Shown in pieces: positions 1,231 through 24,516 of a DNA stretch of 28,816 nt. The DNA lies in the IMG/VR virus record IMGVR_UViG_3300010883_008018, positions 1 to 28,816 of that record. One strand, 5' to 3'. The translations under genes and the position numbers were made by a program. Numbering within the stretch: position 1 is the stretch's first letter; every line of letters begins with the position of its first letter. The stretch comes from a virus. Below the pieces are notes generated by a model. The model did no database searches. It was not told the origin of the DNA and saw only the letters and a list, made by a program, of their open reading frames with translations.

Positions 1231-1238
1231 CAAAGGTA
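1231..1238 (-). promoter_or_regulatory. -7 element (TACCTTTG) before alpha-CTD-like gene
   Basis: The minus strand reads TACCTTTG, a perfect TAnnTTTG, 15 bp before the ATG of the alpha-CTD-like gene. No TTG is present 19-23 bp upstream, so either the -33 element is degenerate or an activator is needed. The leader after it, AAACAAATAGATATG (1227-1213), is identical to the leader at 8604-8590, which also follows a -7 element. That parallel raises my confidence that the site is used. Confidence 0.5.
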
Positions 1239-1265
1239 ATCTATTTATTTGTATTTATAATATAT

Positions 1266-1505
1266 TTATGGGATTAATTTCAACTTATTTCTTAACACCT
1301 TGTCTTTCAGTACGTCATGATATAAAAAATCTTTCTCATTATTACCTTTACCTATTATAATAGGGTTTTGCTCTCCTAGTCTTATCATACAATACCGCCA
1401 TTGTTTTTGTTCATGGTCGTATCTAGTAAAGTATATCCCCCATAAGTTACCGTTCTCTGTGTTCTCAAATTTTTGCCATAATGCGTATGCGTCTTTTCCT
1501 TTCAT
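1266..1505 (-). CDS. Hypothetical protein, 79 aa
   Basis: A 79-aa protein with aromatic beta-like segments (LWGIYFTRYDHEQKQWRYCM at 21-40), a lysine-rich end and no membrane helix. The pattern suggests a small mixed alpha/beta cytoplasmic protein. It starts 2 bp after the stop codon of the methyltransferase gene and is probably translated from the same message. I recognise no family. A role connected with the methyltransferase, such as modulating its activity, is possible from position alone and is not supported by any motif. Confidence 0.6.
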   Translation of the reverse strand: MKGKDAYALWQKFENTENGNLWGIYFTRYDHEQKQWRYCMIRLGEQNPIIIGKGNNEKDFLYHDVLKDKVLRNKLKLIP

Positions 1506-1507
1506 GA

Positions 1508-2578
1508 TTACAACTTATTTAACCACTGATTCAAAATTTCTATTGCTATTTGACCTGTCATTATAGGTGGCACACTCATACCTATTAAATACTCAGGTTT
1601 TAAACCTTTAAAATTATAATCACTAGGGTAACTCCCAATTTTACAAAGTTCTTTCTTATTCCTAGTTCTAGGTCTATCAAACAATACACAACCATCTTTA
1701 GCTGTGATAGTATTAGCTACTTTATCTGAATAAATAAACTTACTGTTAAACATACTTAATTTCCCTCTCTCTCTTACACTTATGTCTGAGATATCATTAT
1801 CTCCGTAAATTCTTTTATTCCATAATTGTTCTTGCAACTCTGATAAATTACACTCTTTATCGTCAAAATCCATTACTTTAGAAAACGGTATCTCTTTACT
1901 GTTAAATTTAATATCTAACCTTGGCAACTCTGTAAACATATCTTTTTGATACAAAAAAGGACTAGCTAAATCTTTACGTAAACAAATAAAAAACACCCTT
2001 TCTCTTTTTTGTGGTAGACTCATTTTTTTACTATTCAATAAAAAATGCTGACAGTAGTAACCTGCATTATCAAATTGTTTGTAAATCTCTTTTACATATT
2101 CTTTAGCATTACCCATTAATAAACCTTTTACATTTTCAGCAACAACTACTTTAGGTTTTAACTCTTTAGCTAAGTCTATAAAATCAAAAAATAATGTATC
2201 CAATACTTGCTTTGCCTGGCCTTCTCTAAATTTTTTATCCTTTCCCCAATCTTTTTCCCTTGAACCTGATACACTAAAACTACTACAAGGTGGAGAACCG
2301 TCTAAAATGTCCAGATTATAAAGTTCTTTAGGTAAGTCTTTACGCTCCTTAAATGTTTGTATTGGTTCTAAATAACTGTATTTCGGATTGTGGTTTTCTC
2401 TGTAAGCTTCAATCATCTTAGGGTCAATTTCATTACATCCTAGTACGTCAAATCCTGCTAATTTATAACCCATAGTAGAACCACCACCACAAGCAAAACA
2501 ACTAAACACAGTTCCTTTATCTTTGGTGAATACTGCATCTTTTAAAGTCCACTCGTAATTAAATTTATTATTTTTCAT
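1508..2578 (-). CDS. DNA (cytosine-5-) methyltransferase
   Basis: A complete 356-aa C5-MTase that transfers a methyl group from S-adenosylmethionine to C5 of cytosine in a specific DNA site. The motifs occur in order: I (FACGGGSTMGYKLAGF, 28-43, SAM binding), IV (DGSPPCSSFS, 93-102, catalytic Cys98), VI (AENVKG, 147-152), VIII (QKRERVFF, 190-197), a target-recognition region at about 205-330, and X (MTGQIAIEIL, near 340-349). The length is typical of phage and restriction-modification enzymes. The start overlaps the stop of the preceding gene in an ATGA. No restriction endonuclease gene lies beside it, so it is an orphan enzyme. The likely role is to shield phage DNA from host restriction, or less likely to time gene expression. 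Recognition site unknown. Confidence 0.95.
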   Translation of the reverse strand: MKNNKFNYEWTLKDAVFTKDKGTVFSCFACGGGSTMGYKLAGFDVLGCNEIDPKMIEAYRENHNPKYSYLEPIQTFKERKDLPKELYNLDILDGSPPCSSFSVSGSREKDWGKDKKFREGQAKQVLDTLFFDFIDLAKELKPKVVVAENVKGLLMGNAKEYVKEIYKQFDNAGYYCQHFLLNSKKMSLPQKRERVFFICLRKDLASPFLYQKDMFTELPRLDIKFNSKEIPFSKVMDFDDKECNLSELQEQLWNKRIYGDNDISDISVRERGKLSMFNSKFIYSDKVANTITAKDGCVLFDRPRTRNKKELCKIGSYPSDYNFKGLKPEYLIGMSVPPIMTGQIAIEILNQWLNKL

Positions 2579-2892
2579 ATCGTTATATTTTTCTTTAATT
2601 CTTCTATTTGTTTCTCTAGTTTATCAATCTTTCTATCCTTAACTCCTACTTTCAATTTTAACTGCTGATTCTCTAATAAAATATCATTCTCGTTTCTTAA
2701 CGTTTCAGCCAGTTTATTTTTTGTTTGATAGAAATACACCGTACAAGTATTTAAACGCTTTAAACAGTCTCTAAGTGGCTCTATTTGATTTGAATTAGGG
2801 CTTTTATCAAGTAATATATTTAGTAGGTTCTCATTTCTTGCATGTACTACTCTTAAATTAGTACTTGCAAATGTGTAGTCTAGTGGGTTCAT
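2575..2892 (-). CDS. Coiled-coil protein, 105 aa
   Basis: A 105-aa protein whose C-terminal half (about 60-105: NKLAETLRNENDILLENQQL, then KLEKQIEELKK) has clear heptad spacing of Leu and Ile, so a long coiled coil is expected. The N-terminal 55 residues carry two cysteines and no recognisable fold. Phage early operons often contain such proteins between the helicase and nucleic-acid enzymes, but the family is unknown to me. It overlaps the methyltransferase start by 4 bp (ATGA) and follows the helicase stop by 3 bp, so translation is probably coupled. Confidence 0.66.
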   Translation of the reverse strand: MNPLDYTFASTNLRVVHARNENLLNILLDKSPNSNQIEPLRDCLKRLNTCTVYFYQTKNKLAETLRNENDILLENQQLKLKVGVKDRKIDKLEKQIEELKKNITI

Positions 2893-2895
2893 AAT

Positions 2896-3882
2896 TTAAA
2901 AGTCTGTTACTATGTCAAAGTCTCCGTTTGGACTCATTGGTTTAAATTGTTCCTCTTCCTTTTCTAAGTCTAAAGGGTCTACTGCGTTAAGCGGTGGCTC
3001 ATCATAAATATCTGGTCTAGTATAAACTAAGAAACTTAGTAAATTCTTTTGAGCATGGAATATAATCGGGTTCGCTTTATAAGTTGGCTTACCTCCCGTC
3101 TTAGTGTTTTTAACTTTAGTTACGTGCCATTCTGACTGCATGAATAATTCTTTGTGCTGTGTCATTCTATGGATTACTATAAAGTTATCACAACGATTAA
3201 CAAACTTACCACCACCTTCAATATCTGCACTTACTAACGGCATTGGGTAGCCTTCAAAGTCATGACCTTTAGCAAAGGTCTTTCTTAATGCATCAGTGTT
3301 ACCATGAGCTAATAAATATAAACTTTTCTTTTGATTCTTGCACCACATTCTAAGCTCTGACATTACCTGATAGTCATACTCATGTGTATTTCCTTTGATA
3401 GTATCAACTTTACCAAGTGAGTTATAGGGGTCGATTACTAAATTATCAATATCTAAACCATTCGCTACTTCAATAATATCTTTAAAGTTCATTAAACGCT
3501 TTTGATTAACAAAAAAAGTATCTGAATCGTAGAACTTAAAATGTTCGTTTACAAAATAATGTGCATAATCAAAATCTTTTTCGCTTAAATCTTTAACTAA
3601 ACTACAAGTGTATAAACTTATTAAATCATCTTTTAATCCTCCTACTTCATTCTCTGAGCTGAATATAGCGTGTTTAATCCCATGCTTAACTGATAGACAA
3701 GTAAAATAATATAAAATACCTATTGTCTTTCCTACGTTAGCGTGACCAGCAATTACATTAAAATCTGTACGTTTATATCTAAGGTTTATATCTAAATCAC
3801 AATCAATTCCTAGTCCTAACTTAAACGAACCGTCACGAATACTTTTTAAATGGTCTAAGCCTGCTTTATCTTCATGTATCAT
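2896..3882 (-). CDS. DnaB-like replicative helicase (ATPase domain only)
   Basis: A 328-aa RecA-fold NTPase. The Walker A motif is GHANVGKT (46-53). FSSENE (74-79) matches the glutamate-bearing H1a motif of DnaB (FSLEM in the family), the Walker B segment NLVID ends at D151, LLAHG (190-194) matches the sensor segment, and GGGKFVNRCDNFIVIHR (223-239) resembles the DnaB arginine/K region. The N-terminal primase-binding domain of DnaB is absent, so the protein is shorter than the 450-aa norm. The acidic C-terminal tail (about 300-328) may serve as an interaction tail. It lies directly after the initiator gene, as in lambda O-P and DnaC/DnaB-type phage modules. The expected role is unwinding phage DNA at the fork. 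A RecA/Sak4-type recombinase is the alternative. Confidence 0.85.
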   Translation of the reverse strand: MIHEDKAGLDHLKSIRDGSFKLGLGIDCDLDINLRYKRTDFNVIAGHANVGKTIGILYYFTCLSVKHGIKHAIFSSENEVGGLKDDLISLYTCSLVKDLSEKDFDYAHYFVNEHFKFYDSDTFFVNQKRLMNFKDIIEVANGLDIDNLVIDPYNSLGKVDTIKGNTHEYDYQVMSELRMWCKNQKKSLYLLAHGNTDALRKTFAKGHDFEGYPMPLVSADIEGGGKFVNRCDNFIVIHRMTQHKELFMQSEWHVTKVKNTKTGGKPTYKANPIIFHAQKNLLSFLVYTRPDIYDEPPLNAVDPLDLEKEEEQFKPMSPNGDFDIVTDF

Positions 3883-17700: not shown

Positions 17701-18099
17701 AGATAAATCAGATAATTCTCTACTCTGTTGTTTATATAAAGACGTTGAGTCTCTTAATGTTTTTAATCTTTTACGTTCTGCTACATCAGCCTTTTTAGTT
17801 TGATTTAATAAAGCCGTTTCTGTTTTTAATTGTTCTCTCTTTAATTGTTCTTGCTTCTTTTCTATATCAACAGACGCTTTACGTAACTTAATGGAATTAT
17901 TTACCTCTGCGTTTATTTCTCTAATACCTTTTGCACTGTTAGGGTCTACGCCACCAATTCCAGCCTTAGCAGATTGAGCAGTCTTTTTAATTTGCCCGTC
18001 AATTTCTGAGTATAATTCTTTTACTTCTTTTAATTGTTGTATGTGGTTATCTAAAACACCATCAACAATAATTTCACCTTTCTTTATTTGTTTAGCCAT
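14788..18099 (-). CDS. Tape measure protein (TP901 type)
   Basis: A 1103-aa protein, the longest in the window. Residues 1-150 are helical coiled coil. Residues about 220-440 match the TP901 tape-measure core, with the sequence SVFTASQITSLQTELAKLGF (254-273), TGTELAQSAIQVGSALRIF and ALPIVGTTADVAGVS. Hydrophobic helices follow at about 197-212 and 560-580 (LALALTALIELAVAFYDIA) and would insert in the membrane during DNA entry. A long charged helical region (about 780-920) comes next, and the C-terminal part has an exposed GDRDTHIIKAHKDEYIIG segment. The protein sets tail length: at about 1.5 angstrom per helical residue the tail would be about 165 nm. The start follows a short gene with overlap. 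Confidence 0.93.
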   Translation of the reverse strand: MAKQIKKGEIIVDGVLDNHIQQLKEVKELYSEIDGQIKKTAQSAKAGIGGVDPNSAKGIREINAEVNNSIKLRKASVDIEKKQEQLKREQLKTETALLNQTKKADVAERKRLKTLRDSTSLYKQQSRELSDLSRRFKELSLAGRGSGKVARGLLVDIKRLNNGLVKADALTGKFGRNVGNYGSALNRATASLRSFAGAIGLTSGIFLLVQGFRDAFSTIKDFEQANANLASILGTTKDKVVDLTKDAKRLGEVSVFTASQITSLQTELAKLGFNRREILASTEAIQSLAAATGTELAQSAIQVGSALRIFNLDASEAGRVVDVLAQSTTKSALDMSKLATALPIVGTTADVAGVSLERTTALLGVLSDRGLDASTSGTALRNIFLDLAEKGLTWEEAMSKINNATNKNATALGLFGKRGATSAIVLAENADASDKLTKSLLLSGGAAEKMANTQIDTLSGSIKLLKSAWEGVVLGFAEGNGALNGLKNTIQFVAKNLKTIIGLVVTLTKVFISFKAVMFALKMNDRVKEWVSFRKEVKKGGTAMSSASKNAKGFGKALKGIGLALALTALIELAVAFYDIASGAAEARRQQDLFNEATKTASDFGEHFNNQSEERIKLKTKELQLLVAEGKLTQKQMDLQLRDLQLKKENEALDVISRAKKRIKTIELETAALESLKESRLINEDNFSKSESGQRAYANAIDRVNSANTISNKTIKENTDRIVKQNAIIKEFDAIVVNTSDNIHDYTVRIADNSGKIRANTDNLKDNTDAKKKNNAAEEEEQRLFDLKSQQQKDVKDNSDDNDSIREEEARKAQEALDKKNQQQEDADKQRLDREKKLAEERLKRQKDNFQQLTNLLNSTLEIQQGKIDSQIESSRINITESQSAVDNLQEQAKLGNADAQASIKAEKQKIANEKGNIDALEKKKRDLQILVTGLAFANQKIQAGDGNALENAGSDMKDFIAKLEGKYEGTNTTLGADLGNAYAITGDRDTHIIKAHKDEYIIGVDNSRKLGGMNQEEIVAGALMYKNGEFVGNRAVNAVNQVSSFNDSRLLSYQQKTIEAINNIQIPEHHFNYDAVNKMATESIRIGNKTIHNHSKNGGLFS

Positions 18100-18553
18100 T
18101 ACTCATATTCTTTAAATCGGTGAACCACTCAATAACTGTTATTTCCTTAATTTGCATTCTATAGCCTTTGTATTTCTCTAGGTAACTTTTAGTCTCGTAA
18201 AAGCTTGTACTTTTGCCTGTATTTAATGAATCTAAATCAGCATCTACTATGCTAAGTTGGGTATTAATAAACGGGTCTTTTGTCAAGATGTAGTTATAAT
18301 TTAATATAGCTTTCTCTTTTAATAATCTTAATTGTTTTTTGAAACTATCATCTAGTCCAAACTCTGTAATATACTCGTCTTGTAAGTTGTCCCATAAGTC
18401 AGCAAGCTTTTTACTTACTCTGCCTGAGCCACTAATAAATAAATGTTTTAAATCTCCCGTTTTTAGTATCTCCTGCCAATTCCAAATAGGCATAGTTTCA
18501 ATACTATTATAAGTTTTGTCGGTAATAGTCGATAAAGAGTCCTTTTGTTTCAT
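18092..18553 (-). CDS. Tail-operon protein before the tape measure, 153 aa
   Basis: An approximately 153-aa mostly helical protein. The ATG at 18553 is chosen over an upstream TTG at 18556. It contains MPIWNWQEILKTGDLKHLF (about 21-39) and a helical C-terminal half with an aromatic tail (RMQIKEITVIEWFTDLKNM). Position just before the tape measure is where tail-assembly chaperones are found, so a chaperone role is plausible. It overlaps the preceding gene by 47 bp in a different frame, but the frame offset is +1, not the -1 typical of programmed slippage, so a fusion product is not supported. Family not recognised. Confidence 0.62.
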   Translation of the reverse strand: MKQKDSLSTITDKTYNSIETMPIWNWQEILKTGDLKHLFISGSGRVSKKLADLWDNLQDEYITEFGLDDSFKKQLRLLKEKAILNYNYILTKDPFINTQLSIVDADLDSLNTGKSTSFYETKSYLEKYKGYRMQIKEITVIEWFTDLKNMSNG

Positions 18554-18956
18554 CAATTAGTATTTGTAAATTCTCGTCTGTTAGTCCTAATATTTCCTCT
18601 CCGTAGTCATCAAAAAGATTGTTACCTTCTTTGATTGGGTTGGCATCTATTGATATAAACTTTTGAAAGACTTTAACTTTCCAACTAGCCCAAAATTCAC
18701 CAGTATCTTTTAAATCAATAAACTCACCTTGCTTTTTTTTACCCTTACTTATCTGCTCAGTAGCAAATGAATAAGTACCTAAATGTGCGCCCAAAGAATC
18801 AGTTTTATCTCTTCCGAGTTGTTCCTCAGTATTTAGGCGCACTATTAAGTCTTTAATAACCTTGTTGTCTAATACTAACTTGAAGATTTTACCCTCCTGC
18901 TTCTTCAGTTCGGTTGCACGTTTTAAATGCTCTGAAAGTATAGTATATGAAAACAT
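18507..18956 (-). CDS. Neck or tail-completion-like protein, 149 aa
   Basis: A 149-aa protein with a helical N-terminal part and a central stretch that reads SLGAHLGTYSFATEQISKGK (54-73) followed by LKDTGEFWASWKVKVF. This pattern (a GxYS segment followed by the LxDTGxFxxS motif) is one I know from Bacteroidota phage proteins near the tail genes, without a confirmed function. A tail completion or minor tail role is the best guess. Its 3' end overlaps the next gene by 47 bp. ATG at 18956 is the first in frame, 3 bp after the 59-aa gene. Confidence 0.6.
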   Translation of the reverse strand: MFSYTILSEHLKRATELKKQEGKIFKLVLDNKVIKDLIVRLNTEEQLGRDKTDSLGAHLGTYSFATEQISKGKKKQGEFIDLKDTGEFWASWKVKVFQKFISIDANPIKEGNNLFDDYGEEILGLTDENLQILIDETKGLFIDYYRQNL

Positions 18957-18959
18957 AGT

Positions 18960-19139
18960 TTATTTTTTTTCTCTCTTACCTCTTCTTCTAGGTTTGAAAG
19001 ATTCATCTTCTATTCCTAACATCTTAGCCGCTTGTAAAATATCTACCGTTGTGAATTTACCTTTATATGAGTTTTTAAATTCCTCTAGTGACATTTTACA
19101 AACTTCTAATTTGTTAAAATTGATATTGTCAATTATCAT
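18960..19139 (-). CDS. Small protein after tail tube gene, 59 aa
   Basis: This short frame has ATG at 19139-19137, overlapping the stop of the tail tube gene as TAATG, and TAA at 18962-18960. The 59-aa product begins MIIDNINFNKLEVCKMSLEE, is helical, and ends in a very basic tail (KPRRRGKREKK). Small proteins between tail tube and tape measure are usually tail-assembly chaperones of the gpG kind, and the basic tail may bind the tape measure. The coupling to the tail tube gene supports it as real. No frameshift site found nearby. Confidence 0.7.
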   Translation of the reverse strand: MIIDNINFNKLEVCKMSLEEFKNSYKGKFTTVDILQAAKMLGIEDESFKPRRRGKREKK

Positions 19140-20065
19140 TAAGGCGCTGTAAATGTTACAGATTCCATAACAAAACCGACTTTTGCATAATCTATTCTTA
19201 CTACATCTAATGAAGTAACCGCTGGAATAACAACCGCATAAACTCCTGAGCTAGTCTCAACAGTAGAAGTAATTACAATTGCACTCGATTGAGTAACATT
19301 GTAAGCTGTAAAGTCTGCTAATAAAGCACCTTCATACTTAATACCATTAAATACTGTACCGTAATCTAAAGACATTTTTAAATCAGCACCAGTCAAAGCA
19401 GGCGTAGAAGTAACTCCATTAATGTTAATTAAAGAGCGTAAAGCTAAAGCATCAACAGCCGTTACTGGCGTATAGTTTAAATCTGCATCTCTTTCGTTTT
19501 CCTCAACAGCAAACTTTACGTTTATGTTTTGAACTTCCGTTGCATTCGGGTACTTGTACATTACTTGCAAAGTACTTCTTTGAATCTTAATAGGGTCTAA
19601 ATCTCCTGTAGATGCATTTTTCATTCCGATAATGTTTCCATTAACATCAATGATAAAGTAACCCATTTGAGAGCAAGCCATAGATTCTAAAGCACCTACA
19701 TAAGTAGGATTAGCGATAGCACCGTAAAAAGTACCGTCATAGTTTCTAACTCCTTGTTTCACATTCAACGGGATACCGTCAATATCTTGTGTAACATTTT
19801 CTCCACGTACACCGATAACATTATTAATAGCTTCTGTAATATTCCATCTTAAAGATTGGTCTAATACGGACGCTCCTGCTCCTGCGTTAATTTTACCTTC
19901 AAAGAAAGTAGAATCTAATACGTCTGTGCTTTTGATTGAATTGACTGCACCTAAATTGTCAAGATATTGAACGAAAATGATTCTCGAATCTCTACCGAAT
20001 GAAGGTACACAACTTGGTTGACCAAAAGGTGTTACTCCATCTCCACAACTGCAAATTTCTGCCAT
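19139..20065 (-). CDS. Major tail tube protein (putative), 308 aa
   Basis: A 308-aa protein with a Cys-rich start (MAEICSCGDGVTPFGQPSC), a pattern I associate with Bacteroidota phage major tail proteins, followed by a beta-rich body (about 60-230) with QDIDGIPLNVKQGVRNYDGT and a C-terminal domain (about 225-308) that looks like an Ig-like module (YNVTQSSAIVITSTVETSSG). It is in the right place, before the chaperone-like and tape measure genes. About 300 aa fits tail tubes that carry an added surface domain. It forms hexameric rings around the tape measure in the tail. The 67-bp gap before it may contain a promoter or leader not resolved here. Confidence 0.78.
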   Translation of the reverse strand: MAEICSCGDGVTPFGQPSCVPSFGRDSRIIFVQYLDNLGAVNSIKSTDVLDSTFFEGKINAGAGASVLDQSLRWNITEAINNVIGVRGENVTQDIDGIPLNVKQGVRNYDGTFYGAIANPTYVGALESMACSQMGYFIIDVNGNIIGMKNASTGDLDPIKIQRSTLQVMYKYPNATEVQNINVKFAVEENERDADLNYTPVTAVDALALRSLININGVTSTPALTGADLKMSLDYGTVFNGIKYEGALLADFTAYNVTQSSAIVITSTVETSSGVYAVVIPAVTSLDVVRIDYAKVGFVMESVTFTAP

Positions 20066-20132: not shown

Positions 20133-21431
20133 TTAAGAGTTTAACAACTCACTTAATTTTATACTGTAAGGTGTAGCACCTACTCCGTAAGTAATCGAAT
20201 CACCGAAACATACTATTTTACTATAACCTGTACATAAATGGCTTAAAGAGTTTGCAATAGCTTCTTGACCGCTTACCGTTGGGTGTACATAATCTTCTGC
20301 TCCTCCTGCATTTAATGGATTCCTTAGAAAAGATGTTATCAACTCGTTAGGGTCATTGTTTGCTGTAAAGGGTGCTAATGTATCAGCTACGCCACATTTT
20401 AAAGTACTTGCTGCAATTGTATTCATTACTGCTCTATACTCATCAAGTTTAACGTTTAAGTCCAGTAAAGACTCGTCACCATACATAGGCGTGTAATCGT
20501 TTTGCTCTTTCTTTTTGTCGCTTACGGTTGGCGGTGTGTATGCTAATAATACGTCTGAACCGTTTGTAATAATTGCATCAACACAAGTTTGTAAATTAGT
20601 TTGAAAGGCTGTTAAGCTTAACCATTTACTAGTGTTTAAACAATCATTTGCACCTATCATAATGATAGTTAAATCAGGGTTTTCATTAGTTACGTCTGTA
20701 AGTCTTTGGCTTAAATCAAATGTGTTATTGTTTGGTACACCTTTATTAATTACTTCAACCGCATTTACAACTTCTGGCGGTACTTTCCAAATACTATCAT
20801 TTAAGTATGTAGTGTTTCCATTAGTAACAATTGTTGTAGTCATGTTGCCACTATCAGAAGTCAATATATTACCGCTTTGCTCACCTAAACTAAAAGTTTC
20901 AGTACCTATTCTAAACGAATGAATGTAACCTGTAAACTCTCTTGCTTGAGATTTAGCAACTTTAGATAATACAAAAGGCGTAGTTTGGTTGTCTACAAAA
21001 ATTGGAGTTCCACCGTTTATTTGTATGTAAATGTCATTAACTGAATCTTTGTATATTCTTGTAGTTGTTTTAGCAGTCATATCTAAAGCAAGCCCTGTCT
21101 TGTAGAACACAGGTGCTCCACAATTCATTCCTAACTTACTTGAATTTCCGCTAACTAAAACTCTACTGCCTACAGATACATCACCAAATAAAGGTATGTA
21201 GCTAGAATCTTCGATTGCTTCCTGAGTAGTTATTTCAAAATCAAACTCGCCACTATAAGTAATAGGGTTGTCTAATTGTATGTAGTCAACGTTGGCACGT
21301 AGTAAGTTTAAAACTTTGCTTCCGTTGCTTGGTGGAATTACTACAGTCGTAGGATAACATAGAGTTTCGTCTATCTCTACTGTTCCGACAACTACGCCGT
21401 CATCTATTCTTTTTAATTCTACTTGTATCAT
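20133..21431 (-). CDS. Circularly permuted SGNH/GDSL hydrolase fused to N-terminal adhesin-like domain
   Basis: A 432-aa protein with two parts. Residues 1-200 form an N-terminal beta-rich (concanavalin-like) adhesin module. Residues 220-432 carry the SGNH hydrolase blocks in the wrong order: block II is NKGVPNNNTFDLSQRL (229-244, G231), block III is IGANDC (259-264, G260, N262), block V is EDYVHPTVSG (379-388, D380, H383), and block I, with the nucleophile, is KIVCFGDSITYGVGA (405-419, Ser412), which normally comes first. The chain then ends LSELLNS, the helix that normally links block I to block II. All four catalytic residues are present, so the active site can form. The expected reaction is deacetylation of a surface polysaccharide. 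Located among three receptor-binding-like genes. Confidence 0.88.
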   Translation of the reverse strand: MIQVELKRIDDGVVVGTVEIDETLCYPTTVVIPPSNGSKVLNLLRANVDYIQLDNPITYSGEFDFEITTQEAIEDSSYIPLFGDVSVGSRVLVSGNSSKLGMNCGAPVFYKTGLALDMTAKTTTRIYKDSVNDIYIQINGGTPIFVDNQTTPFVLSKVAKSQAREFTGYIHSFRIGTETFSLGEQSGNILTSDSGNMTTTIVTNGNTTYLNDSIWKVPPEVVNAVEVINKGVPNNNTFDLSQRLTDVTNENPDLTIIMIGANDCLNTSKWLSLTAFQTNLQTCVDAIITNGSDVLLAYTPPTVSDKKKEQNDYTPMYGDESLLDLNVKLDEYRAVMNTIAASTLKCGVADTLAPFTANNDPNELITSFLRNPLNAGGAEDYVHPTVSGQEAIANSLSHLCTGYSKIVCFGDSITYGVGATPYSIKLSELLNS

Positions 21432-21436
21432 GTTAT

Positions 21437-23143
21437 TTAAAAATGGTTACGGCAAACTATTAAATTAATAGATGCGTTTACTGAGTTTTGTGGGAATGGG
21501 TTAAATCTTGCACTATTTACGACGTCTTGGTTTTCTCGCCAGAATAATATACTTGTTGAACTTACAGTGTTCATTATCCAATGATTGTTGTCAACCCAAG
21601 TCTTATCAGGAGTAAGTAAGTTGTTAGAAATACCATCACCAAAACTAATATGATTAGCGTCTTTCATGGTTAACATTCTGAACTGTCCGTAGTTAGTTGA
21701 ACCGTAAGTTGAAGCATCATAAGCCGTTAATGTAAATATTTTAGCATCTGCTGACGAATCAACCCAGTCTTTAGTACCTCCGTGTAATTCGTTTAGGTAA
21801 TAGCCTATGCCTGTAAAATGGTCTATCTTATAAAATGCTGTTGCACCGTCAGAAGTAAGACCCCCACCTACATCAGTGTAATTAGTTCCCCCTTTATCGT
21901 TTGTACCTCTTTCAAGATTACCCCAAAAGTTATTGGTTAATAGTTTCGTAAGGTCGTTAGGGTCTAATATTGGAGTAATACCGTTTACATTGTACGTTGT
22001 GAATACGTCAGTTGTATCAATATAATCTTTTACATCACCCGTTATATTACTAACTGCGCCCTCGTTCATTGTCCATTGGTCACGAACATAAGCAATATCA
22101 GTAACTACTACACCACATACAGTCGCAACGAATGGTGTTTGTGCTGGTGTTATTACTGGTAATCCATCAGAGTCAATATTTGTAACGTCTGGTAATAATA
22201 AGTTAGCTTGTGATACTACGTTTTGAGAGTATGTAACGTCTGAGTTTGTCACTACTGAATCAGTAATTGTCTGCTCATTAGTTCCACCACTAACAATTGA
22301 ATTATTGTATAATATAACTCCTAAACTGTCTTTTATAATACTTGTTGCATTGTCACAAGCTCCACCTGTATAATCAAATCGACCACCACTAGGTACAAAC
22401 TGTTCAAATACCATATCTTTATAAATAGATACAGGGAAGCATTTAGAAACTATTGGTAAATCACCTATACAAACATCTACTACATAAGGTAAAGAAATTC
22501 TAAGTTGACTACCACTTAACTGGTCTGTTATAATTTGAAGCTCATAACCCTTATCTGTAGCGTATGCACCAAAATTTACATGGTTATTTACAGTGTGCGA
22601 AGTTAATTTTCCAAATAAATCCTGTCTTGCTTTTAATGTTTTAATGAAAAAATCAATCTCATTATACATTGGATATACAGCATAACTATAAGCCTTATCT
22701 ATGTTCCAATCTTCAAAATCAGAAGACGTCAAAAAGAATAGGTTTAAATCTAAAGTCGCTTTAACTGAAGAATCGTCCGCATCATCATGTTCAGCATCTA
22801 AGAACTCTAAAAGCCAAATAAAAGGATATTCATTAATATTTTGATTAATATATTCTCCGTTTACTTTCTTAGGCGTACCATGTATAAATCTTGGTGAATC
22901 AATATCGAAATATGTACCCGTTGGAATTACTGCTCCCGATAAAGTTAAAGAGTTGTTTAATACAAAATCAGTAACTTTATAATCAATTAAATTGATAGTG
23001 ACAACACTTCCTAGACTTAAATAATAGGTATTATTAACTGATAACGTATAAGTACCGTCTAAATTATCTGTAATAGATTCAACCGTAACCCTATGAAGAG
23101 TACTTTCAATTAAATCATTAAGTATTTGTATCGGTTTAATCAT
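21437..23143 (-). CDS. Neck/tail protein fused to C-terminal adhesin domain, 568 aa
   Basis: A 568-aa protein. Residues 1-240 match a Bacteroidota phage neck/tail protein pattern: beta-sandwich (ITDNLDGTYTLSVNNTYYLS), then FIHGT and the F-I-W-L-L-E segment, LFFLTSSDFEDWNIDKAYSY, YPMYNEIDFFIKTLKARQDL and LSGSQLRISLPYVVDVC. The part at about 255-370 is a linker with Asn/Thr/Ser repeats, and the C-terminal part (about 370-568) is a beta-rich, Gly- and aromatic-rich adhesin-like domain. It has a -7 promoter candidate 31 bp upstream of its ATG. The fold and name of the N-terminal part are from memory. The C-terminal domain could bind host surface glycans. Confidence 0.65.
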   Translation of the reverse strand: MIKPIQILNDLIESTLHRVTVESITDNLDGTYTLSVNNTYYLSLGSVVTINLIDYKVTDFVLNNSLTLSGAVIPTGTYFDIDSPRFIHGTPKKVNGEYINQNINEYPFIWLLEFLDAEHDDADDSSVKATLDLNLFFLTSSDFEDWNIDKAYSYAVYPMYNEIDFFIKTLKARQDLFGKLTSHTVNNHVNFGAYATDKGYELQIITDQLSGSQLRISLPYVVDVCIGDLPIVSKCFPVSIYKDMVFEQFVPSGGRFDYTGGACDNATSIIKDSLGVILYNNSIVSGGTNEQTITDSVVTNSDVTYSQNVVSQANLLLPDVTNIDSDGLPVITPAQTPFVATVCGVVVTDIAYVRDQWTMNEGAVSNITGDVKDYIDTTDVFTTYNVNGITPILDPNDLTKLLTNNFWGNLERGTNDKGGTNYTDVGGGLTSDGATAFYKIDHFTGIGYYLNELHGGTKDWVDSSADAKIFTLTAYDASTYGSTNYGQFRMLTMKDANHISFGDGISNNLLTPDKTWVDNNHWIMNTVSSTSILFWRENQDVVNSARFNPFPQNSVNASINLIVCRNHF

Positions 23144-23220: not shown

Positions 23221-24516
23221 TTAAGGAACATCACTCACAATATCAGCTACAGTCATGTTTACCATTGTTAGGTCAGTACTTCCGATTGAGTCAACTAAAG
23301 TTGGGAATGTGTCTCCGTCTCCCATCCTCCACCAATTGCTTGGAGGTGAAGCAAGTAGGCTCAAATCATGAGTGTTTCCGCTACTGTATATAAAAGATGA
23401 ATTACTTGACTGGTCTGAGTTCCAAAAGGCTAACTCGTCAATTTTGCATGAGTCTCTGAGCCATGAGCTACCCGTGCCCCATCTCCCGACCCTAAAAACT
23501 TCTACCTCTAAGGAGGAGTTTATACCGTAATTTGCATTGCTGTTTATTGTTGTTTGCTCAACTCCGTTTAAATATATCTTGAATCTACTATAGTAGTCTG
23601 AAACACTACCACTTGAATTGCCAGTAGTGCCTCCGTCAAAAGTAACTAACAGGTGGTTCCAGTTGCCGTCATTTAGAACTGTCCCTAAGGGAGTTGAAAG
23701 TTCTATATAATTATAGCTAGTTCCGTATCTAATTGATACATTTTGTCTTACTGGGTTGTTTCCTTCCCAATAAAGTAACACAAAAGGGTCGTTTAGCGCA
23801 CTATTTCCTCCCGCAAAAACTAGGGTCTGCACAGAGTTATTATGACCGCCCGCTTTGAACCAAGTGCTTATAGTCCATGCTTTTCCATCACCATTTGACG
23901 CCCTGCCAAATATTGAATTTATTTCAGTCTCTGAGCCACTTAAATAATCTTTTTTTTTAAACTGTATGCTTTTTGAATTGCTGAATGGAGGGTTTGAAAC
24001 AGTTAAAACAATTGTCTCAGAATCTTCACCATAGTAATTAATAGCTTTTACTGGTATATTATAAGTACCACTTACTAAAGCTGACCCCCCTATTAATTTC
24101 CTTACATTACCTTCTACATTTACAATATCTGAAACAGTTGACAAATCCCATTCATAACCTACTCCAAAATTTGCAGTTAATTCATAATTAAGGGTTTGAC
24201 CTTGGGCTAAATTTATAGTAAGGTTTGAAGTTATTACAGGGACATTACCACCACCGCCACCAGTCGCTTGAAAAATAGCGTTTAAATTGTTAGTAGTAGT
24301 TTGTCCGTCTGTACCCCATGCAACACCGTTTTTATCTTCAAACTGTGTATAATCAATATCTGATAATATCTCTATATCTCTAGCAATATCAAATACTGAA
24401 AGTGTGCTATCTGTTGGATTATCTTGTACGGCTTGTAGATTATTTAAAAATTGCGCCCCGTTATTATCTTCAATAAATATAGCATTCGCATTATTGTCTA
24501 TATAAATTACTATCAT
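23221..24516 (-). CDS. LamG-like lectin adhesin, 431 aa
   Basis: A 431-aa protein in three parts. An N-terminal region at about 1-90 may attach it to the virion. A beta-sandwich (Ig/cadherin-like) domain follows at about 93-182 (VPVITSNLTINLAQGQTLNY, then TYNIPVKAINYYGEDSETIV), and then a LamG/concanavalin-type lectin domain at about 186-400, with the typical core AWTISTWFKAGG (213-224), NWNHLLVTFDG and FKIYLNGVEQTT, and a final SCKIDELAFWN. These domains bind carbohydrate or cell-surface ligands. The lectin part is richer in GC (hand count 277 of 660 bases, about 42%) than the adjacent DNA (about 25-30%), so it may have been acquired. It overlaps the previous gene by 4 bp (ATGA). A host-range determinant is the best reading. 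Confidence 0.84.
   Translation of the reverse strand: MIVIYIDNNANAIFIEDNNGAQFLNNLQAVQDNPTDSTLSVFDIARDIEILSDIDYTQFEDKNGVAWGTDGQTTTNNLNAIFQATGGGGGNVPVITSNLTINLAQGQTLNYELTANFGVGYEWDLSTVSDIVNVEGNVRKLIGGSALVSGTYNIPVKAINYYGEDSETIVLTVSNPPFSNSKSIQFKKKDYLSGSETEINSIFGRASNGDGKAWTISTWFKAGGHNNSVQTLVFAGGNSALNDPFVLLYWEGNNPVRQNVSIRYGTSYNYIELSTPLGTVLNDGNWNHLLVTFDGGTTGNSSGSVSDYYSRFKIYLNGVEQTTINSNANYGINSSLEVEVFRVGRWGTGSSWLRDSCKIDELAFWNSDQSSNSSFIYSSGNTHDLSLLASPPSNWWRMGDGDTFPTLVDSIGSTDLTMVNMTVADIVSDVP

Follow-up and report, generated by a model that had tools for sequence, protein, structure and literature searches.

Published SGNH proteins of phage tails have acetyl esterase activity, and removal of acetyl groups from capsule or O-antigen has been shown or is presumed for them; phage G7C gp63.1 and the receptor-binding proteins of Klebsiella prophages are tail SGNH esterases acting as deacetylases of surface polysaccharide (PMC13123978). 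That paper mentions no permutation in these proteins. In canonical SGNH/GDSL hydrolases, such as the PF13472 members Axe2, LAE5, AlAXEase and Bacteroides acylhydrolases, blocks I (GDS), II (G), III (GxND) and V (DxxH) follow one another in the order I-II-III-V. Permuted SGNH domains have been described in the O-acetyltransferases AlgX, AlgJ, WssI and PatB1 (DHHW), where the order is H-S-G-N with block V first (PMC9487903, PMC4148444, PMC10302187); these proteins have altered motifs (GTSYS or KDS, DXH) and extra cap elements. The chain layout of CE20, another SGNH enzyme with a polysaccharide context, is also unusual, but there an inserted domain interrupts the SGNH part without any rotation, and the motifs are GQSNM and DxH (PMC12313940). 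CE25 from Bacteroides, weighed as a possible described relative, was set aside, since the triad reported for it (Ser37, Asp238, His241) follows the canonical order.

The window analysed here is a virus record of 28.8 kb (28,816 nucleotides in full) with siphovirus-like genes on the minus strand. One of its open reading frames (21431-20133) runs from an ATG start to a TAA stop with the frame open and encodes a protein of 432 residues, P0001 (Table 1). All the blocks of the PF13472 enzymes are present in P0001, in the order II-III-V-I instead of I-II-III-V, and the stop codon comes 20 residues past the GDS. This order had been read by a first-pass annotation at G231, GAND (260-263), D380/H383 and GDS (410-412), and locating the motifs bore it out. 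P0001 has the blocks of an SGNH/GDSL hydrolase without the canonical order, and we place it as a permuted branch. Unlike AlgX, AlgJ, WssI and PatB1, it reads G-N-H-S with standard GDS, GAND and DxxH motifs and is cut elsewhere; measured against the published definition of the AlgX/AlgJ/DHHW order (PMC9487903), its block V precedes block I only. Among the Pfam families listed up to E=0.1, none was AlgX, AlgJ or DHHW. A block I mimic, FGDVSVG, lies in the N-terminal module (residues 82-88; 21168-21188, minus strand); it was rejected as block I, having no Ser at the nucleophile position and lying ~145 residues ahead of block II.

Table 1 Features of the P0001 gene and its neighbours, in window positions
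Feature	Position	Strand	Evidence or remark
P0001 gene, N-terminal module and permuted SGNH domain	20133..21431 (stop included)	-	PF13472, E=1.7e-16
N-terminal module, residues 1-217, family not identified	20781..21431	-	No Pfam match; AF2 low confidence, scattered strands; no homologue in the loci examined
Permuted SGNH/GDSL hydrolase domain, residues 218-432	20133..20780 (stop included)	-	Pfam, rotation, AF2, relatives
Block II, N229-K230-G231, oxyanion Gly	20739..20747	-	N and G invariant in 12-member permuted alignment
Block III, G260-A-N-D263, oxyanion Asn	20643..20654	-	Motif position and permuted alignment
Block V, D380-Y-V-H383, catalytic Asp and His	20283..20294	-	Motif position and permuted alignment
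Block I, G410-D-S412, nucleophile; first block in the usual fold	20196..20204	-	Permuted alignment; AF2 strand 405-410
Helix alpha1 and chain end, residues 421-432; beta2/block II normally next	20136..20171	-	AF2 helix 421-431
568-aa neighbour gene	21437..23143	-	Related phages keep the first ~220 residues; the C-terminal half varies
308-aa structural gene, probable tail protein	19139..20065	-	Conserved; borders the variable slot at its other end

The permutation was examined by rotating the domain. As written, P0001 matched PF13472 (Lipase_GDSL_2) over residues 225-391 (61.7 bits against a curated cut-off of 32.9), a match that covers profile positions 33-178 and misses block I. When the C-terminal 33 residues (400-432) were moved ahead of residues 218-399, the match became contiguous (1-178; E=1.7e-19, 71.5 bits), and DUF459, below its cut-off in the natural order, reached 28.5 bits. 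The rotated query brought canonical phage 'lipases' into alignment over the artificial junction (E=1e-7, 44% identity over residues 6-81 of the rotated sequence), whereas matches to the natural-order query span blocks II-V only. A lipoprotein of Algibacter miyuki (L172) is collinear with residues 220-420 of P0001, straight through the V-to-I junction (blastp, E=1e-26). Judged from these sequence comparisons, the SGNH domain of P0001 is a true circular permutation, cut between helix alpha1 and strand beta2. The earlier view of it as a real permutation in an intact gene is upheld both by the rotation and by relatives in identical order, the relatives being the decisive evidence.

An AF2 model of the domain alone, built with ten aligned sequences (pLDDT 80.9, pTM 0.84), has an alpha/beta/alpha fold of SGNH type. 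Its elements run beta2, beta3 (GAND), helices, last helix, beta1 (GDS) and alpha1, and a linker of about five residues (400-404, C-T-G-Y-S) joins the last helix to beta1. This predicted secondary structure agrees with the first-pass claim that the chain ends in the helix between blocks I and II and that a short TGYS linker closes the fold. Foldseek returned SGNH structures at probability 1.00 (TM ~0.5-0.6, ~170-180 columns), the best solved-structure matches being acylhydrolases and acetylesterases, e.g. LAE5, AlAXEase, Axe2 and Bacteroides acylhydrolases; Foldseek cannot align across a permutation, and its ~175-column matches are uninformative on block I. For full-length P0001 the mean pLDDT was 58, with most of the N-terminal module below 50.

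A profile search in permuted order had been suggested at the outset. Relatives in permuted order were found in Bacteroidota, in Verrucomicrobiota/Lentisphaerota and in a second phage. With the Algibacter protein as query, full-length matches were present in 7 of 301 Flavobacteriaceae genomes, the seed genome included. The profile search gave 4 of 396 Bacteroidota genomes, one being the seed, at E <1e-70 and with coverage to position 218-219; canonical Bacteroidota relatives in the same search mostly end near position 175, at E near 1e-20. An extended profile found a Lentisphaerae member and, among 241 Verrucomicrobiota/Lentisphaerota genomes, 23 with a total of 32 matches, none of which stopped short of position 213. 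Bacillota yielded one match in 250 genomes, in canonical order, and the profile search found none in 199 Actinomycetota genomes. Among 20 Verrucomicrobiota/Lentisphaerota loci whose tails were checked, GDS follows block V in 19, and in the remaining one (L374) a stop interrupts before block I; ahead of block II, no GDS-like motif was seen in 19 loci except an unrelated GTSN ~350 residues upstream (L359). A permuted-family HMM separates the two forms: permuted members score 204-365 bits at full length, canonical ones at most ~83 bits with the match ending at block V, and the separation holds for members outside its building set (L226, L197-L199). P0001, itself part of the model, scores 221 bits over the full length and through the V-to-I junction. 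The catalytic residues, all said to be kept in the first-pass annotation, were located in their blocks and are invariant in the 12-member permuted alignment, with G, N, D, H and S among its 24 invariant columns. Simpler searches were less productive. Protein patterns drawn from P0001 by itself found no relative in viral contigs or reference genomes; apart from the window itself, the DNA pattern HP..GDSIT gave chance or canonical matches only, as did DGVHPT..GY among the matches listed, and a seven-sequence alignment was too divergent for a scan. In the genomes searched, permuted G-N-H-S SGNH proteins make up a family that is widespread in bacteria and not specific to phages.

The bacterial members have leader-like N-termini, judged by eye to be signal or lipoprotein leaders. 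Neighbours of the bacterial copies include sulfatases, GH95, GH88, SusD, SASA acetylesterases, BD-FAE (feruloyl-esterase-like), symporters and FAD oxidoreductases, and the Bacteroidota copies adjoin sulfatases, GH95/GH88, SusD and acetylesterases. Such surroundings are those in which carbohydrate esterases of polysaccharide utilisation loci are found. A Flavobacteriaceae locus (L187, G176:C1:553000-571000; L230 7272-9284) has the permuted SGNH C-terminal to a beta-helix, lyase-like protein in a 669-aa chain. Three Verrucomicrobiota proteins (L366, L369, L375) have it at the N-terminus, followed by ~530 residues of other sequence, so a chain end at alpha1 is usual, not required.

In the window, the capsid protein shares 39% identity with its counterpart in Flavobacterium phages (Muminvirus), and Flavobacterium phages, at ~25%, are also the only matches of the gene that follows the tape measure. 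The P0001 gene is located between head/connector genes and a conserved structural gene; P0001 and the C-terminal half of the 568-aa neighbour appear to occupy a variable slot as exchangeable modules. An MCP-synteny search found related phage contigs, none of those examined carrying the P0001 gene, which is therefore cargo of one phage within the MCP-related group. Just before the tape measure, two open reading frames on the minus strand overlap in different frames (18507-18956 and 18092-18556, the second from TTG), and over 18092-18956 they resemble a tail-chaperone arrangement. Such arrangements often use a programmed frameshift.

The N-terminal module had been taken for an adhesin. Residues 1-217 have neither a Pfam match nor a confident fold, and the assignment came from position only; no lectin family matched residues 1-218 up to E=1, and no Laminin-G/ConA-type adhesin profile matched the module, a Laminin_G_3 match being found instead in gene 23221-24516. 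Residues 1-217 have no significant homology with the neighbouring fibre genes or with the fibre of the second phage, nor was a relation detected with G7C gp63.1 or the Klebsiella proteins. The module is probably a beta-rich carbohydrate-binding or virion-attachment part.

The second phage, IMGVR_UViG_3300028595_000028 (L226, 40 kb), encodes a stand-alone permuted SGNH of ~231 aa (within 1232-3708), directly after a 594-aa fibre-like gene and ahead of an amidase-like gene. Its contig gave no match to the window tape measure protein. The two phages are apparently unrelated, and the domain is found near tail-type genes in two different phages. Separately, two records labelled as Enterococcus or Listeria phage, OR846589.1 (L166) and OR846753.1 (L167), contain stand-alone, bacterial-looking GDSL acylhydrolases, that of L166 closely resembling E. 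faecalis 1YZF, a sign that phage records that are unverified may include host DNA.

For the trees, only the columns of blocks II-V were used, so that the permutation itself had no influence on them. With 12 permuted and 43 canonical rows, a single branch sets the permuted rows apart (98/93). When the permuted rows numbered 31, two long-branch Vibrio phage sequences fell among them without support; holding the permuted rows together was not rejected (p-AU 0.379), and removing the two Vibrio phage rows recovered the permuted group (78/91). The permuted rows had been gathered with permuted queries, and canonical sister groups may be under-sampled. A single origin of the permutation is favoured by these trees, though not proven. 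The P0001 branch is long (1.3-1.7 changes per column), and for this reason the trees do not place its donor or its closeness to the other phage copy, and P0001 may have a reduced or changed activity. The phage gene was probably taken from the bacterial permuted SGNH family.

We have good confidence in the following as the best explanation of the whole: P0001 carries a complete but permuted SGNH domain of predicted fold, a member of an exported family, which was most likely captured from a host and would serve for deacetylation by the virion during adsorption. The chain would enter the fold at strand beta2 (block II), continue with blocks III and V and, past the last helix, turn through the short linker into beta1 with the GDS nucleophile, ending in alpha1. 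Once folded, S412, H383 and D380, with G231 and N262 as oxyanion hole, are predicted to rebuild the canonical active site, which would act as an O-acetylesterase. The domain belongs to a family of exported glycan esterases in Bacteroidota and Verrucomicrobiota whose permutation would be ancestral, probably with a single origin. The phage most likely took the domain over from a host of that kind. Borne on the virion, it would strip acetyl groups from surface polysaccharide during adsorption. Because of the bacterial gene neighbourhoods, the variable tail-region slot and the published phage SGNH tail esterases, virion-associated O-deacetylation of a host surface glycan is the most likely role of P0001.

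Other readings were weighed against this one. It is unlikely that P0001 is a segment-swapped oligomer, in which each chain of a fibre trimer is completed by the beta1-alpha1 segment at the C-terminus of its neighbour, with active sites built between chains: tail fibres are commonly trimeric and block I, lying at the chain end, could swap, but the linker of about five residues leaves little reach, stand-alone exported bacterial relatives have the same arrangement without any fibre context, and the segment is internal in the three Verrucomicrobiota proteins. We find it equally improbable that the SGNH fold is non-enzymatic and serves as a lectin or a structural element; the long branch of one phage copy would fit, yet the four SGNH residues and the block V Asp are all retained, as in the bacterial family. 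Circular permutants usually arise by tandem duplication followed by trimming of the ends, and the long branch of P0001 would also suit a decayed remnant, in which tandem SGNH copies were partly deleted in the phage to leave a non-functional jumble that keeps the motifs. This is very improbable, as the catalytic blocks are all intact, the frame has no stops, the identical order is kept in ~30 sampled proteins and no trace of a second SGNH copy was found downstream of the stop codon. Finally, the scrambling of a canonical gene by a sequencing or assembly error, a refutation foreseen in the first-pass annotation and conceivable for a metagenomic contig whose examined relatives lack the gene, is in essence refuted, as independent genomes share the permuted order and the independent Algibacter miyuki protein is collinear through the junction.

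Returning to the permuted enzyme, the open-access literature contained no description of the G-N-H-S order (subscription papers and preprints lay outside this scope), and the bacterial family is apparently new to the literature. The first-pass annotation knew of no permuted SGNH domain in phage tails, and we likewise found no phage case described in the open-access papers, but the permutation is also widespread in bacteria. We incline, with moderate confidence, to the view that this is an unrecognised branch of SGNH esterases, cut at a hitherto undescribed point between alpha1 and beta2, common in polysaccharide-degrading Bacteroidota and Verrucomicrobiota and of one origin, and that at least two different phages have acquired it as a deacetylase of the tail region. 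If so, this would be the first known case of a permuted SGNH enzyme in phages. Because the domain models stop at block V, automatic annotation calls permuted members ordinary GDSL lipases and misses the block I nucleophile; such members may look like dead, Ser-less esterases and are probably complete enzymes. The permuted form would add a candidate carbohydrate-esterase family in bacterial polysaccharide loci and a clean case of stable circular permutation with both forms side by side. It would also link the glycan-degrading clusters of hosts to phage tails, as a source of surface-modifying enzymes.
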